This document shows positions 24,688 through 30,410 of a stretch of DNA of 64,000 bases, in pieces; position 1 is the stretch's first letter, and each line of letters starts with the position of its first letter. This stretch comes from an uncultured Porphyromonadaceae bacterium (GTDB lineage: Bacteria; Bacteroidota; Bacteroidia; Bacteroidales; Muribaculaceae). The DNA is taken from the NCBI GenBank assembly GCA_948467675.1, contig CAOKFI010000007.1:1-64000 (forward strand), given 5' to 3'. Both the position numbers and the translations under genes were made by a program. The notes beneath the pieces were generated by a model. It ran no database searches. It worked only from the letters and a program-made list of their open reading frames with translations, and was not told where the DNA came from.

Positions 24688-24725
24688 AAAAGCGTGTCGT
24701 ACCGGTTCAGGTACGACACGCTTTT
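24688..24725. terminator. Bidirectional terminator
   Basis: AAAAGCGTGTCGTACC and GGTACGACACGCTTTT form a perfect 16-bp stem around GGTTCA, with A4/T4 edges. It sits between the M13 peptidase gene and the convergent porin gene and can serve both. Confidence 0.85.
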
Positions 24726-24745: not shown

Positions 24746-26056
24746 TCAGAATGTAACCTGAAGCATGGTCTGGATCCGGTTATCGTGACATGAGCGCCCG
24801 TCCATATCGACACGGCGCCCGTATATGTATTCTATCCCGGTCGATATACGTGAGGTGATATTCCACATTATATTGGCGAGCGCGTACTGCGCATACCGGT
24901 ACTGGCCGCTCCAGGGTGTGGAGCCGCCGGCATAGCGGCCGGCATAATTGCGCAGATGGCTGTATGTCGTCGTAGCATAGACTGCGGGCGATATATTGTA
25001 CTGCAATCCCAGATATCCGCCCCATGCTCCGACCGGTTTCAGACGTCCGGCGCCATCAGGCACCATATCGAGACCCCCCTGATACAGATCCTGGAAATAA
25101 CTCGTTATGCCCTGGCCGTAAGCCGCCTGGTAATATGCCGTGACAAATCCCGACAGCGATGCGCTGCCGCTCATCTTGACACCCCACCCCACCTGGTCGC
25201 GGTTACGGTCAGCCACCTCATCGCGATAAATCATATTGCGCACTATTCCTGACAGGCGGATCCAGCTTTTGCCCCCGCCCCATGAATACTGTATATATGC
25301 CGGTATGTCCGGAACCCGCTGCTTGACGACATACGAATTCTGTCCGGTCGTGGCCGACACCATAGGCAGCTCGGCGCCTGCCCCTATGCTCCAGTGGGAG
25401 TCGAAGGAATGGCGGTAGTCGATCACTGTGTTTGGAATAGCCGTGAATCCGCACGGGCCTTCGTTGTCGATACTCGGAGGTGCCGCGGCCATATCGGAAA
25501 ACAGGCTGAAATCATAACCGGCCGTGAAGCCACGGTATTTTATATAGGCATAATACAGATTGAAACCATATCCGTTGCCATTGCCCGTAAGATTGAAATT
25601 GAAGTACAGACCTATGCGGTTCTTGCTTCCGGGCATAGCCACGAAATTGAAATACAGACCGCTCGTGGCGGCCGAGGCCTGTATCAGCCCGCCGTCGCCA
25701 TCGCGCCGCCCCATCGGAATGGCCGATGTGGTGAAATCATAGGCATTGTCTATTGGATTTCCCCAGTCATAGGACAGTGTGACCTTTCCGGTTCCTCCGA
25801 TACCCAGATAGAACTTACGGTCTTTACCCTCTATGGCGAAACGTGGCGCACCAGGCACCCTGAACGATTTCGGGGCATTCTCGAGAAATATATTGTAGAC
25901 GTTGACAATCGTCGTATCGCCGCTACCACGGTCATGAGGATTGATGACCGTAACCTCCTGATAGTCCGGAGTGTTAGGATGGGACTGTCCGTACAGACAC
26001 GGCATGACACCGAACGCCGGGAGCAGCAGGATGAAACGTGAAAGTGTATTATTCAT
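24746..26056 (-). CDS. DcaP-like outer-membrane porin
   Basis: This 436-residue protein starts at MNNTLSRFILLLPAFGVMPCLYGQ, a signal peptide; an upstream Met 20 residues earlier would break it. The mature part begins with a short periplasmic stretch (NVYNIFLENAPKSF) and then beta strands such as GLYFNFVAMPGSKNRIGLYFNFN and GFTAGYDFSLFSDMAAAPPSID, ending in RVDMDGRSCHDNRIQTMLQVTF. This resembles trimeric DcaP-type porins for small anionic compounds. It is the last gene of the four-gene minus-strand cluster, 28 nt after the MFS gene, and could supply outer-membrane passage for that system. Confidence 0.7.
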   Translation of the reverse strand: MNNTLSRFILLLPAFGVMPCLYGQSHPNTPDYQEVTVINPHDRGSGDTTIVNVYNIFLENAPKSFRVPGAPRFAIEGKDRKFYLGIGGTGKVTLSYDWGNPIDNAYDFTTSAIPMGRRDGDGGLIQASAATSGLYFNFVAMPGSKNRIGLYFNFNLTGNGNGYGFNLYYAYIKYRGFTAGYDFSLFSDMAAAPPSIDNEGPCGFTAIPNTVIDYRHSFDSHWSIGAGAELPMVSATTGQNSYVVKQRVPDIPAYIQYSWGGGKSWIRLSGIVRNMIYRDEVADRNRDQVGWGVKMSGSASLSGFVTAYYQAAYGQGITSYFQDLYQGGLDMVPDGAGRLKPVGAWGGYLGLQYNISPAVYATTTYSHLRNYAGRYAGGSTPWSGQYRYAQYALANIMWNITSRISTGIEYIYGRRVDMDGRSCHDNRIQTMLQVTF

Positions 26057-26084
26057 TGGAAAACAGATGATATTTTTTATTACG

Positions 26085-27338
26085 TCAATAATATGACCGG
26101 TCGATACGGAACACAAACGATCTGCGGAAGATCACCACGATTACGGCAAACACCGCGAGCAACACGGCATTAAGCTCGAACGGAAAGGCATTGTCGTGAC
26201 GGCCGGGATCGAATACGTCCTGAAAGAAACCGACAATAAAAGGAGTGGCGCTTATCGATATATAGTTGGCTGCCAGAACAAACGAGAGCGCAAGAGTGCA
26301 TTTTCCGGGAACCGTGACCACCTGCGTGGCCTTGTCGTAGATAAGCGGCTGGAACACACCGTAGCCGAAACCTACCATTACGGCGGCCACACACATGATC
26401 CCGAAACCGCTCGATACCGCCATGAGTATTATTCCGCCCGCCATTACCAGCGAACACACTATGAAAGTGGTCTGCCTCAATATCTTTACGATATACGGGA
26501 GAACAAGTCCCGGCAGGAATACCGCAAGAAAGAATATGGCCGTGACAGTGCCGGTATCGGAATCGCTCATCCTATCGGCATCCATCAGAAACGGAGTGTA
26601 GTAACTCACGATCACCGTCGAATAGCATACAAAGAAATATACAGCTATCAGCGACCACACTCTCGGGAGTATGAACCCGCTTTTCACGCGGCCCGATACG
26701 GCGGCCGCCTCCGGCACAGTCCCGGCGGTCACTCCCGTGCCGGGTGTGGCCGGATCGAGATCCGTTTTCGGAATCTCACGCAGAAAAACAGACAATACAA
26801 GCGGCACTGCCGGTATCAGATACACCAGAAACGGCATACGCCAGTTGCCGTGGCTAAGCCATCCGACCGCGTATGTGGCTACGACCAGAGCTATATTGGA
26901 TATGCCTGACTTGATGCCGAGCTGCCTCATACGGTATCGGCCCGCGAATGTGTCAGCCAGCAGACCTGCCGCAAGAGGAATGAGCAGACCGCATCCCACA
27001 CCAAGCAGACAGCTTATAACGATCAGATCCGACATGCTGCCGGCGAAGAAATACAGAATACCGCTCGCAAGATAGATGACAAGCGCTATGACGACTATGC
27101 GTATCTTGCTTTTATACAGCGACAGGCGCCCCGAAAGCAGCACAAACGGGATGATGAAAAGATTTGGCAGCACGGTGAGGAGCTGTATCTCCAGCTCGGA
27201 TGTGCGCGGAAATATACTGTCCAGATTGCCGAGCATAGGAGTTATGGCAAGTCCCGGAAGATTCACCGTCAGCGATATCGACCATATCGCAATCAGCGCC
27301 ATAATGGAGATAGTCCCCTTTCCTGTATTGATTCTCAT
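26085..27338 (-). CDS. Major facilitator superfamily transporter
   Basis: This 417-residue inner-membrane protein has about 12 transmembrane segments and a central loop at about residues 195-215. Segment 1-3 signatures (LTVNLPGLAITPML, FVLLSGRLSLYKSKIR) place it among DHA1-like drug/metabolite exporters. It lies between the GadC-like antiporter and the porin genes. A likely role is export of the product, or uptake of the substrate, of the decarboxylase; this is inferred from position only. Confidence 0.85.
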   Translation of the reverse strand: MRINTGKGTISIMALIAIWSISLTVNLPGLAITPMLGNLDSIFPRTSELEIQLLTVLPNLFIIPFVLLSGRLSLYKSKIRIVVIALVIYLASGILYFFAGSMSDLIVISCLLGVGCGLLIPLAAGLLADTFAGRYRMRQLGIKSGISNIALVVATYAVGWLSHGNWRMPFLVYLIPAVPLVLSVFLREIPKTDLDPATPGTGVTAGTVPEAAAVSGRVKSGFILPRVWSLIAVYFFVCYSTVIVSYYTPFLMDADRMSDSDTGTVTAIFFLAVFLPGLVLPYIVKILRQTTFIVCSLVMAGGIILMAVSSGFGIMCVAAVMVGFGYGVFQPLIYDKATQVVTVPGKCTLALSFVLAANYISISATPFIVGFFQDVFDPGRHDNAFPFELNAVLLAVFAVIVVIFRRSFVFRIDRSYY

Positions 27339-27368
27339 CGTTTCGCCATTTGTGGAAATAATCTATCA

Positions 27369-27409
27369 GTAACGGACAGTGCAGCAGGCTGTGCTGCACT
27401 GTCCGTTAC
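27369..27409. other. Intercistronic 18-bp perfect hairpin
   Basis: GTAACGGACAGTGCAGCA, loop GGCTG, and the exact complement lie between the antiporter and MFS genes. No T-tract follows on the minus strand, so it is more likely an mRNA stability or processing hairpin than a full terminator. Confidence 0.6.
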
Positions 27410-27428
27410 GGTACGGCCGCCGTAATCC

Positions 27429-29138
27429 CTACTCGCCTCTGCCAGAGTCCATGCTCTTGTTGAACACATCATATGCAGTGGCCTGGGGAGTACCCGTACC
27501 GTCGTAAGCCTTGACAGCCTCCGCGGCGAGTCTCTCGGCATCAGCGGCAGAAGCGCCGTTTTCTTCGGCCAGTATGCGTGCGTCGGTACCGGCGATCTCG
27601 GCCGACGACGGTGTGTAGCCTGCACTCCATGACGATACCTGCGACGGTCTGCGGTTCTCTATCTGCCAGTCGAATGGATAGAAATCGGCCTGAGGATTGC
27701 GCCACGACGGCTTACGCATGGCAAACACAACCAGAGGCACACAGAAGAACAGCAACGCACCGCAGAAGATGATAAGGACATAGACCAGCGGACTGCCTGT
27801 ATCGATCTGCGACGGAGGAAAGAAACTCAGTATCATCGCGGCCAGCGCACCGAGTATGCCGATACCTCCTATGGTGAACTCGCCGAACTTCCCGCCAGGT
27901 ATACGGAACCCGCGGCGCTTCTGAGGCTGCGTATGGCGAAGACGCAGGAATGAGAAATAGATCATAAGCACCAGTATCAGATAGATCACAGTAGCCATCT
28001 GCGACATCACCTGATAGGCCGATTCCACCGAAGGAAGAACCACGAGCACAAGCGCAAGCAGACTCACGAAGACTGCCTGTACATAGAGTATCGGCTTGTT
28101 CACACCGCGGCTGTTGGTCTTCTGGAAACTGCGGGGCAGATAACCGCTCTCGCCTACTGCAACAAGACCTGTCGACGGGCCGGCGATGATCACGCTCACC
28201 TGACCTATCACACCGAAAGTGATCAGAAGTGCCATGACATTGCCGAGCCAAGGCACCCCGATCGATGCCCACAGATCGTCATAGGCCACAAGAAGAGAGG
28301 CCAGAAGATTGATATCCTTGGCCGGAACCACGAAACCGATGGCCAGTGTGGCGAACACGAATATGAGCACTATGACCGCAACCGCCAAAAAGATCGCACG
28401 CGGAAACTGGCGAGCCGGATTCTTCATATTCTGCACATGCACGGCATTCATCTCCATACCACCGTAGAAAAGGAAGATAGAAGCCGCCAGAACGATAGTC
28501 CCTATCTTGGTGAAATCAGGGAAAAACGATTCATGAGCCAGCATCACCGGCTTGCCCATGCACAGATAAGCCACACCCAGCACTATCAGCACCGCCCCGG
28601 GAACAATTGTACCGAACATTCCGCCGAGAGTGCTCAGTACCTTCGACGACTTCATGCCCCGGAAAGCTATGAAATTGGTAGTCCAGTAGACCGCGAGCAC
28701 GACTATCAGCGTGTAGATTTTGTTCGACGACAGACGCGCGTCGAAAGATTCAGGCCAGAATATATAGGCGAGCGACACGGCAGCGAACATAAGGACTGCC
28801 GGAAACCATATCACAAGAGTCTGCCATTCAAGATACATCGCCGACCATCCCCAACGGGGACCGAAAGCCTCCGAAACCCAGCGGTAAAGACCGCCGGAAT
28901 GGGTATAGGTCGATGCAAGCTCGGCGCACACCAGAGAGAACGGTATGAGAAAAAAGAGTGCGGCAAACAGATAGTAGAATATCGACTGGATGCCGAACTC
29001 GGCCTGAGAAGGAAGTCCGCGGAGACTGACCACAGTAGTGATGATCATGACTGTCATCGCCCCAGTTGAGATCAGAGCCTTCGAAGTATTGCTCCCATTA
29101 GGCCTGTCGGAAGTATTCGGAGAATTTTTAGTAGACAT
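27429..29138 (-). CDS. GadC-like amino acid/amine antiporter (APC family)
   Basis: This 569-residue inner-membrane protein has 12 or more membrane segments. Segment 1 (ALISTGAMTVMIITTVVSLRGLPSQAEFG) and the following SGGLYRWVSEAFGP are the APC-family binding elements, closest to glutamate:GABA antiporters. The cytoplasmic C-terminal tail of about 80 residues (from MRKPSWRNP) is comparable to the pH-gating tail of GadC. In GadC systems the partner is a PLP glutamate decarboxylase; here the upstream partner is a pyruvoyl decarboxylase, so the exchanged pair is probably a different amino acid and its amine. A terminator-like hairpin (29179-29209) separates it from the decarboxylase gene. Confidence 0.85.
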   Translation of the reverse strand: MSTKNSPNTSDRPNGSNTSKALISTGAMTVMIITTVVSLRGLPSQAEFGIQSIFYYLFAALFFLIPFSLVCAELASTYTHSGGLYRWVSEAFGPRWGWSAMYLEWQTLVIWFPAVLMFAAVSLAYIFWPESFDARLSSNKIYTLIVVLAVYWTTNFIAFRGMKSSKVLSTLGGMFGTIVPGAVLIVLGVAYLCMGKPVMLAHESFFPDFTKIGTIVLAASIFLFYGGMEMNAVHVQNMKNPARQFPRAIFLAVAVIVLIFVFATLAIGFVVPAKDINLLASLLVAYDDLWASIGVPWLGNVMALLITFGVIGQVSVIIAGPSTGLVAVGESGYLPRSFQKTNSRGVNKPILYVQAVFVSLLALVLVVLPSVESAYQVMSQMATVIYLILVLMIYFSFLRLRHTQPQKRRGFRIPGGKFGEFTIGGIGILGALAAMILSFFPPSQIDTGSPLVYVLIIFCGALLFFCVPLVVFAMRKPSWRNPQADFYPFDWQIENRRPSQVSSWSAGYTPSSAEIAGTDARILAEENGASAADAERLAAEAVKAYDGTGTPQATAYDVFNKSMDSGRGE

Positions 29139-29178
29139 AAGCCTGAGTATTGTGTTGAAACATAAAACATATCAATAG

Positions 29179-29209
29179 AAAAAAGGAGCAGGCGGTAGCT
29201 GCCTGCCCC
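29179..29209 (-). terminator. Terminator-like hairpin between decarboxylase and antiporter genes
   Basis: On the minus strand GGGGCAGGC, loop AGCTACC, GCCTGCTCC is followed by T6. It would end most transcripts after the decarboxylase gene and so set a decarboxylase to transporter ratio, unless the antiporter has its own promoter. Confidence 0.7.
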
Positions 29210-29264
29210 CGTTATGGTGTTGATGGCTGTACGGAAACACAGTCATGTCCATACAGCAGAATCA

Positions 29265-30410
29265 TCAGAGTTCCACCACAGGATATACCTCGCCGATCTT
29301 GGTTCCGACTTTATAGTGGGTACCCTTGTGGGCCGACATCGATACATTCATGTTGGCAGAGAAAAGATATACTATATCGGATCCGCCGAACTGGAAATAA
29401 GAGATCTCGTCGCCCTTCTTCAGAGCCACACCCTCCTCGGCGGTCACTACTACCGACGAAACCTGAGGCATGGCTATAGGAAGTATGGCAACATAGCCGT
29501 ATTTGGTCTCAAGCACGATCAGACCGCGGGTCTGCATGAACTCGTATCCAGCCTCGTCGGGAGCAGTCGCACGCCAGGCCTCCACCTGATTAGTGGCAGG
29601 ATCGACCTTGTCGGGCACAGCCACAAGATCGACATAACATGCGCCCTGGATCACACGGGCCTCACGTACTATACCCGACAGAGGTGCATGCTGGCGGTGA
29701 TAGTCGGTCCAGCTCAGGAACGAGTGGCACCACATGCCCCCCTTGAACTTATCCTTGTACGGGCTACCCTCCAGAAGCTCGTATATGCTCCAGTCAAGAC
29801 CCTTGATCCGCACATGTGTGTCAGGGCGTATCTCCCACTGGCCGCCGAAGCAGGCATCGGCAGGATGCACTATGATCCTGTCGTCGTCGATAGCGGCTAT
29901 AGGACGGTAGCCCGGCTTCACATGGCGGGCAAACATCTGGTTGAAGGTCTTCCACCCTCCGCGCGGCTCAAGATACTCGTCCATATTGTAGACAGCGCAG
30001 TCATAGAACGATTTCACACTGTCGTCAGTGATAGACTCCGGACTGTCGAGCCAGTTGCCTATACCGTAGCAGTAGTCTACCATCCATTTCGACAGTGGCG
30101 ACAATTCCGGCTGACGGTCAGATGGCCGGCACGGTGTCTGGAGCGACTTCACAGGTTCCTGATCCAGAAGGAAGAACGAACGGAACAGATGCTGGTAAAC
30201 GTGTGTGCCCTCCTGGTTCTCGGAAGGTACCCAGTGCATATAGGCCTCGAGATAATCGAGATAACCGTCGATAGTGGTGATATCCGATAGACCCGGTATC
30301 TTGTACGACACAACCTTGGATATAGCCTGATTGAACTTGTCTTCCCAGTTGTTTTCCTTGATAAGATCCGCGAGTTCCTGTACCTGAGGAGAATACTTCT
30401 TGTCTGCCAT
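29265..30410 (-). CDS. Soluble pyruvoyl decarboxylase of the phosphatidylserine decarboxylase (PsiD-like) family
   Basis: This 381-residue protein has an N-terminal helical PSD-associated region (about 1-150) and a decarboxylase core. TFNQMFARHVKPGYRPI (155-171) and VHPADACFGG (D185) match the core start, and DYHRQHAP (H238, H241) supplies the conserved His. FGGSDIVYLF (341-350) holds the self-cleavage site at G343-S344, where Ser becomes the pyruvoyl group. There is no signal peptide or membrane anchor, unlike genuine membrane phosphatidylserine decarboxylases. Family members with this layout include the fungal tryptophan decarboxylase PsiD, so a free amino acid is a plausible substrate. A GadC-like antiporter gene directly downstream supports this. 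The substrate cannot be read from sequence, and a phospholipid role is not excluded. Confidence 0.8.
   Translation of the reverse strand: MADKKYSPQVQELADLIKENNWEDKFNQAISKVVSYKIPGLSDITTIDGYLDYLEAYMHWVPSENQEGTHVYQHLFRSFFLLDQEPVKSLQTPCRPSDRQPELSPLSKWMVDYCYGIGNWLDSPESITDDSVKSFYDCAVYNMDEYLEPRGGWKTFNQMFARHVKPGYRPIAAIDDDRIIVHPADACFGGQWEIRPDTHVRIKGLDWSIYELLEGSPYKDKFKGGMWCHSFLSWTDYHRQHAPLSGIVREARVIQGACYVDLVAVPDKVDPATNQVEAWRATAPDEAGYEFMQTRGLIVLETKYGYVAILPIAMPQVSSVVVTAEEGVALKKGDEISYFQFGGSDIVYLFSANMNVSMSAHKGTHYKVGTKIGEVYPVVEL

Follow-up and report, generated by a model that had tools for sequence, protein, structure and literature searches.

What does a soluble enzyme of the phosphatidylserine decarboxylase (PSD) superfamily do when its gene stands next to the gene of an amino-acid antiporter? 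This question is raised by a locus on contig CAOKFI010000007.1 (GenBank assembly GCA_948467675.1) of an uncultured Porphyromonadaceae bacterium that is placed in Muribaculaceae. We analyzed positions 1 to 64,000 of the contig, and this whole stretch of 64,000 nucleotides is called the window below. A first-pass annotation of the window had proposed an amino-acid decarboxylation module of four genes. We give a probability of about 0.8 to the reading of this locus as an amino-acid decarboxylase/antiporter module whose pyruvoyl enzyme, a member of the PSD superfamily, acts as a functional equivalent of a group-II decarboxylase dependent on pyridoxal phosphate (PLP). The four open reading frames (ORFs) lie where that annotation had put them, in the same order and on the same strand:

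29265..30410, minus strand: PSD-family pyruvoyl decarboxylase proenzyme, predicted to be soluble, 381 aa (PF02666 at residues 156-373, 149 bits, cut-off 22)
27429..29138, minus strand: GadC-like APC amino-acid antiporter, 569 aa (AA_permease_2, 184 bits)
26085..27338, minus strand: MFS transporter, 417 aa (MFS_1, 112 bits)
24746..26056, minus strand: outer-membrane porin with signal peptide MNNTLSRFILLLPAFG... (Porin_2, 40 bits; weakly DcaP-like)

Conservation of the gene pair and exchange of the enzyme

The enzyme and antiporter genes stay together in many genomes. A scan of species-representative genomes yielded 29 loci, including those of Duncaniella muris and Barnesiella sp. WM24. In nearly all of them the enzyme gene is followed by the antiporter gene, usually with MFS and/or porin genes, while the surroundings vary. 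Several loci have two or three tandem paralogues of the enzyme. For a census we used a sample of 397 Muribaculaceae genomes. The enzyme is encoded in 65 of them (63 full-length or nearly so) and the high-scoring antiporter clade in 67. All 63 genomes with a full-length enzyme have an antiporter of this clade, which is encoded at most 6 kb away in 59 genomes; in 57 its gene is the next one downstream and has the same orientation. The co-occurrence gives a Fisher p of about 5e-69, a value that ignores kinship of the genomes. The arrangement is far beyond chance and recurs in many differing genomic contexts. Conserved linkage to the antiporter, on which the first-pass annotation had made its proposal depend, was thus found: the decarboxylase gene is kept beside an APC antiporter in 59/63 genomes, and a PLP enzyme can take its place.

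Of all the evidence, this partner swap speaks most strongly for the PSD-family enzyme as an amino-acid decarboxylase that feeds the antiporter. Four antiporter-positive genomes lack the PSD-like enzyme (G494, G514, G524, G733). Each of them encodes a PLP group-II decarboxylase of 583 aa, whose gene directly precedes that of the antiporter in three cases. The full PLP decarboxylase is present in only nine of the 397 genomes, and in the other five (G010, G496, G512, G550, G581) its gene precedes the PSD-like one at a distance of 47-140 bp. A PSD-like or PLP enzyme accompanies the antiporter in 67 genomes out of 67. Plasmids of Plesiomonas, E. albertii, Polymorphobacter and Sphingomonas encode antiporters 50-55% identical to that of the module, directly after PLP decarboxylases of 54-60% identity. 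The best explanation is that the PSD-family enzyme joins or replaces the PLP enzyme in an amino-acid decarboxylase/antiporter module.

The PLP decarboxylases form an uncharacterised group-II family of 571-591 aa with DFHK at the PLP lysine (for example, L137:4494-6245, L153:4133-5878 and L154:3198-4910). Here its genes usually stand beside a GadC-like antiporter or a PSD-like gene. Hints at the substrate from NCBIfam, PDB and the plasmid comparison are weak and scattered (TyrDC, DABA-DC, PanP, GAD), and the closest PDB entries are annotated merely as decarboxylases.

Family of the enzyme and residues of the antiporter

The enzyme belongs to the PSD superfamily by its PF02666 domain, its Asp/His/Ser triad and its G-S cleavage site. 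The codons of the key residues are as follows:

29856..29858, minus strand: codon of D185, the acid of the predicted Asp-His-Ser self-cleavage triad
29688..29699, minus strand: codons 238-241, HRQH, with invariant H238 and H241
29379..29387, minus strand: codons 342-344, predicted Gly-Gly-Ser self-cleavage site, in which S344 is the residue that would be converted to the pyruvoyl group

The first-pass numbering of D185, H238/H241 and the GGS site is exact. H238, H241 and G342-G343-S344 are unchanged across 20 homologues; D185 is near-invariant, the exceptions being Glu in two tandem paralogues. Such a Glu in place of the triad Asp185 was seen in one paralogue of enzyme arrays at L033:10001-11128 and L038:11275-12399, and PsiD-type enzymes also have Glu at this position.

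The enzyme has neither the membrane anchor nor the pssA linkage by which a canonical Psd is recognized. The highest hydropathy over 19 residues is 1.6 versus 2.8 in the genome's own Psd, in agreement with the annotated lack of an anchor. All NCBIfam Psd equivalog cut-offs are missed: the scores are 96 of 371 bits for PRK00723, 81 of 112 for TIGR00163 and 33 of 230 for TIGR00164. A second PF02666 gene lies on contig C28 of the same genome. It encodes 232 aa with an N-terminal hydrophobic segment and adjoins a gene that we read from its sequence as a pssA-type CDP-alcohol phosphatidyltransferase. The absence of a separate psd gene had been named in advance as an argument against the module; such a gene is present, is of the membrane type and stands beside pssA, so the module enzyme would be dispensable for phosphatidylethanolamine synthesis.

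An AlphaFold2 model of the enzyme (mean predicted local distance difference test score, pLDDT, 77, i.e., medium quality) has only two confident fold matches in PDB, the tryptophan decarboxylase PsiD and an arginine decarboxylase of Aspergillus oryzae. Both are PSD-superfamily enzymes acting on free amino acids. PsiD is the top match, with a template modeling (TM) score of about 0.55 and 16% identity in the fold alignment. We also built a maximum likelihood tree of the catalytic core, in which the two fungal enzymes are represented by partial sequences from PDB alignments. The Muribaculaceae enzymes form a single clade (support 99-100%), next to which stand other soluble proteins of Bacteroidota that have the FGGSD motif. 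PsiD and the A. oryzae enzyme form a separate group with relatives from Photobacterium, Plesiomonas, Lactobacillus intestinalis and Mycetohabitans. A third group, which unites E. coli Psd and the genome's own Psd, is far from the module enzyme.

The N-terminal domain PF12588 of the PsiD type gave no match in 20 members of the enzyme clade at E<=10 and was found with 132 and 161 bits in bacterial PsiD-type controls (Photobacterium and Lactobacillus proteins). The acid position is PAD in the enzyme clade versus ACES (Glu) in the PsiD type. A strict PsiD-like identity of the enzyme was dropped on these grounds (no PF12588, separate clade, PAD not CES). Thus, from the proposed amino-acid decarboxylation module we retain an enzyme joined to an inner-membrane antiporter, usually with MFS and porin genes, and we discard the placement of the enzyme on the PsiD branch.

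Two observations concern other members of the superfamily. In one other Bacteroidota genus a soluble PSD-like gene with the FGGSD motif adjoins cytochrome bd oxidase genes (L093, L095, L103). On plasmids of Photobacterium damselae a gene of the PsiD type (PF12588+PF02666) directly follows an antiporter gene (L158:1795-4657, L163:1834-4696), and this antiporter scores above the cut-off set for the basic amino acid/polyamine antiporter subfamily. The pairing of a PSD-family gene with an antiporter may have arisen more than once.

The named family nearest to the module antiporter is that of Gln/GABA (γ-aminobutyric acid) antiporters, TIGR03813, with 621 bits against a cut-off of 650. A relative linked to glutamate decarboxylase (GAD) passes the same model with 788 bits. 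The TyrP model gives 291 of 630 bits, and the arginine/agmatine and lysine/cadaverine antiporter models give only 30-34 bits. The earlier name, a glutamate:GABA-type antiporter, therefore fits the protein as GadC-like and nearest to the Gln/GABA family, and goes too far in that the NCBI cut-off is not reached.

Positions 304, 308 and 382 of E. coli GadC belong to the substrate site in the GadC structure. The module antiporter has Q and I at positions 304 and 308. Antiporters with a PSD-like or PLP partner, proteobacterial copies included, have Q and I/V/L there (N once), and GAD-linked copies have E/G and W. Trp308 and Tyr382 of GadC are replaced by I and V in the module antiporter and are kept as W and Y in 5/5 copies beside glutaminase and/or GAD. 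Despite their Q + I/V/L pattern, some proteobacterial antiporters are placed closer to the GAD-linked copies by the tree, in a weakly supported position. A relative from E. raffinosus was considered as the partner of a tyrosine decarboxylase and rejected, as its neighbour is a glutaminase.

From this residue pattern we infer a substrate other than glutamate/GABA. It is probably common to the PSD-like and PLP enzymes and is most likely neither glutamate nor glutamine. Our leading guess, and a tentative one, is a neutral and possibly aromatic amino acid.

Proposed mechanism and alternative explanations

Muribaculaceae appear to make an amine from an amino acid by means of a self-activating PSD-superfamily enzyme and to export it. 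The soluble proenzyme would cleave itself at G343/S344 to form its pyruvoyl cofactor, as suggested by the motif, fold and solubility read from the sequence. It would then decarboxylate a free amino acid in the cytosol with consumption of one proton and release of CO2. The antiporter would exchange the amine for a new molecule of the amino acid and in this way, by analogy to the GAD system, support pH homeostasis and/or the proton-motive force. The porin could be the outer-membrane passage for substrate or product, and the MFS protein could be an additional transporter.

The gap between the enzyme and antiporter genes contains a further element, and another hairpin closes the module:

29184..29210, minus strand: hairpin with T-run resembling an intrinsic terminator, in the enzyme/antiporter gap
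24688..24725, strand not assigned: strong bidirectional terminator hairpin of 16 pairs, closing the module

The gap hairpin is so far unreported. A terminator-like hairpin occurs in all 21 tested enzyme-antiporter gaps of about 126 bases or longer, compared to 12 of 168 dinucleotide shuffles. Its position is kept across the module and 20 related loci and its sequence is not; at two loci, whose gaps measure about 40 bases, it is absent. With this hairpin the genes would not form a simple uniform operon. It suggests that more enzyme than antiporter is made, or that the two are under separate control; in the proposed mechanism the terminator would probably set expression of the enzyme above that of the antiporter.

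The rest of the locus can be described briefly. For the porin, ATG 26056 is a more likely start than TTG 26116, which the ORF caller gives. It is a porin by Porin_2, as annotated, and the label "DcaP-like" holds only weakly: the DcaP profile of Pfam gives 22 bits, under its cut-off of 27. For the MFS protein we found weak NorA-type matches and nothing stronger. Judging by their sequences, the flanking genes are those of an M13-type peptidase downstream and of a divergent LptD-like protein upstream.

Several observations weigh against the module as proposed. The enzyme and antiporter genes are far apart or on different contigs in 4 of the 63 genomes. The own genome encodes a second antiporter of the same clade (L047:8905-10488, i.e., G000:C2:214949-216490) beside fumarate reductase/succinate dehydrogenase-like genes and with no adjoining decarboxylase, so members of the clade can stand alone; such second copies occur almost exclusively in genomes with a PSD-like or PLP enzyme. 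In other Bacteroidota, the loci that we read around more distant soluble PSD-like genes showed no antiporter of this kind, the sole exception being a weak permease two genes away at L099. The fold model is only of medium quality and its similarity to PsiD is limited (the pLDDT and TM values given above), and a terminator between the two genes speaks against simple co-transcription.

Four other explanations of the locus have to be weighed. Membership in PF02666 and the best NCBIfam matches, which are phosphatidylserine decarboxylases, would be expected if the enzyme were a moonlighting or backup phosphatidylserine (or archaetidylserine-type) decarboxylase for phospholipids and the transporters were its accidental neighbours. 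This is very improbable given the missed equivalog cut-offs, the separate Psd beside pssA, the lack of an anchor, the distance from Psd in the tree and a conserved antiporter linkage that includes the swap with a PLP decarboxylase. A PSD-family enzyme acting as glutamate decarboxylase in a glutamate or glutamine/GABA module is quite unlikely too, although the antiporter is nearest to the Gln/GABA family, true GAD loci of Muribaculaceae share the architecture, MFS and porin, and a search of the own genome gave no match to glutamate decarboxylase, PF00282. The antiporter falls short of the cut-off that the real GAD-linked one passes, it has lost Trp308 and Tyr382, which all GAD-linked copies tested keep, the module has no glutaminase, and some genomes (G612) hold the PSD module together with a separate glsA-GAD-antiporter locus.

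The antiporter also bears on a basic amino acid (Arg, Orn or Lys) as substrate, with polyamine or agmatine as product, as for the A. oryzae enzyme. A PSD-fold enzyme with arginine activity does exist in PDB (9jer/9jf5), and the Photobacterium plasmids give an independent case of a bacterial PSD-family gene beside a basic amino acid/polyamine antiporter. However, the module antiporter is of the GadC/TyrP type and scores poorly with the arginine/agmatine and lysine/cadaverine models, and the enzyme lies outside the A. oryzae clade and lacks the PF12588 domain of the bacterial members of that clade. We regard this substrate class as unlikely. It is also unlikely, finally, that the genes are linked for a biosynthetic purpose with no role in pH, the enzyme making an intermediate or signal (a secondary metabolite) that the antiporter exports. 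PsiD, of the same family, works in a biosynthetic pathway (PMC12603985), and arrays of two or three diverged enzyme paralogues suggest chemical diversification; no recurrent tailoring enzymes were found beside the module, however, and its architecture matches GAD acid-resistance loci.

Under the amino-acid decarboxylase/antiporter reading, a wider proposal can be made, to which we give slightly less than even odds: that the enzymes are a new bacterial class of pyruvoyl amino-acid decarboxylases, derived from PSD independently of the fungal PsiD/arginine group, which displaced a PLP enzyme from amine production coupled to the antiporter and diversified in tandem arrays for several amino acids. 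If this is true, the dominant gut Muribaculaceae would hold an overlooked source of amines, possibly aromatic and host-active, that are missed by PLP-targeted drugs and by annotation pipelines.

Novelty and comparison with known systems

Surveys of gut amino-acid decarboxylases cover PLP enzymes and three pyruvoyl classes (His, Asp, Arg), none of them of the PSD type (PMC12484125), and pyruvoyl or PSD enzymes find no mention in an mBio review on aromatic decarboxylases of microbes (PMC12607914). Neither source would capture a PSD-family class whose members are annotated as phospholipid enzymes. We found no report of a bacterial module of a PSD-family decarboxylase and an antiporter in the open-access literature, and an earlier report elsewhere is possible. 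About 16% of the examined Muribaculaceae genomes encode the enzyme, among them that of the cultured mouse commensal Duncaniella muris, which makes the proposal directly testable. For a PLP-free enzyme, resistance to inhibitors directed at PLP, carbidopa for example, would be expected.

The GAD system of Bacteroides/Muribaculaceae (gadB-glsA-gadC; PMC8082179) resembles the module in that a decarboxylase is encoded beside an APC antiporter of the same superfamily. Other Muribaculaceae have antiporters 45-48% identical to that of the module; at the three loci that we read, these stand with glutaminase and true GAD (L133 and L135) or with glutaminase (L134). At L135 the MFS and porin families of the module are represented too, so that these are not specific to the PSD-family enzyme. 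The systems differ in the enzyme (PLP fold I versus pyruvoyl PSD-family) and in the pocket residues of the antiporter, and neither glutaminase nor a K+ channel was seen at the module. Another system to compare is the pair of a PLP decarboxylase and a putative Gln/GABA antiporter (Plesiomonas, E. albertii, Polymorphobacter and some Muribaculaceae). This pair has the same or a closely related antiporter with the same 304/308 pattern and a decarboxylase directly upstream, which is a PLP group-II enzyme (PF00282) unrelated to PSD.

Two fungal enzymes are the nearest in fold. PsiD of Psilocybe (PDB 8x4q, 8zia) is likewise a soluble PSD-superfamily protein with an FGGS cleavage site; it acts on a free amino acid and is the top fold match of the module enzyme. 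In contrast to the module enzyme it is of the PF12588 type, has the Glu of ACES in place of Asp and belongs to a separate clade, and the 16% identity is low. PsiD serves fungal biosynthesis, whereas the module is linked to an antiporter. The arginine decarboxylase of A. oryzae (PDB 9jer, 9jf5) has a PSD fold that acts on a free amino acid, and it differs in clustering with the PsiD group.

The tdc operon (tyrosine decarboxylase-tyrP; PMC12607914) shares the decarboxylase/permease arrangement, there with exchange of amino acid for amine; it has a PLP enzyme, and the module antiporter stays far below the cut-off of the TyrP model. A pyruvoyl enzyme with an antiporter, as in the module, and with an amine as product is known from HdcA and its histidine/histamine antiporter (PMC8465708). 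Decarboxylase/antiporter modules are thus already known, as is the combination of a pyruvoyl enzyme and an antiporter for histidine. HdcA belongs to an enzyme family other than PF02666. The new part of the locus described here is the superfamily of its enzyme and the exchange of this enzyme with a PLP enzyme.

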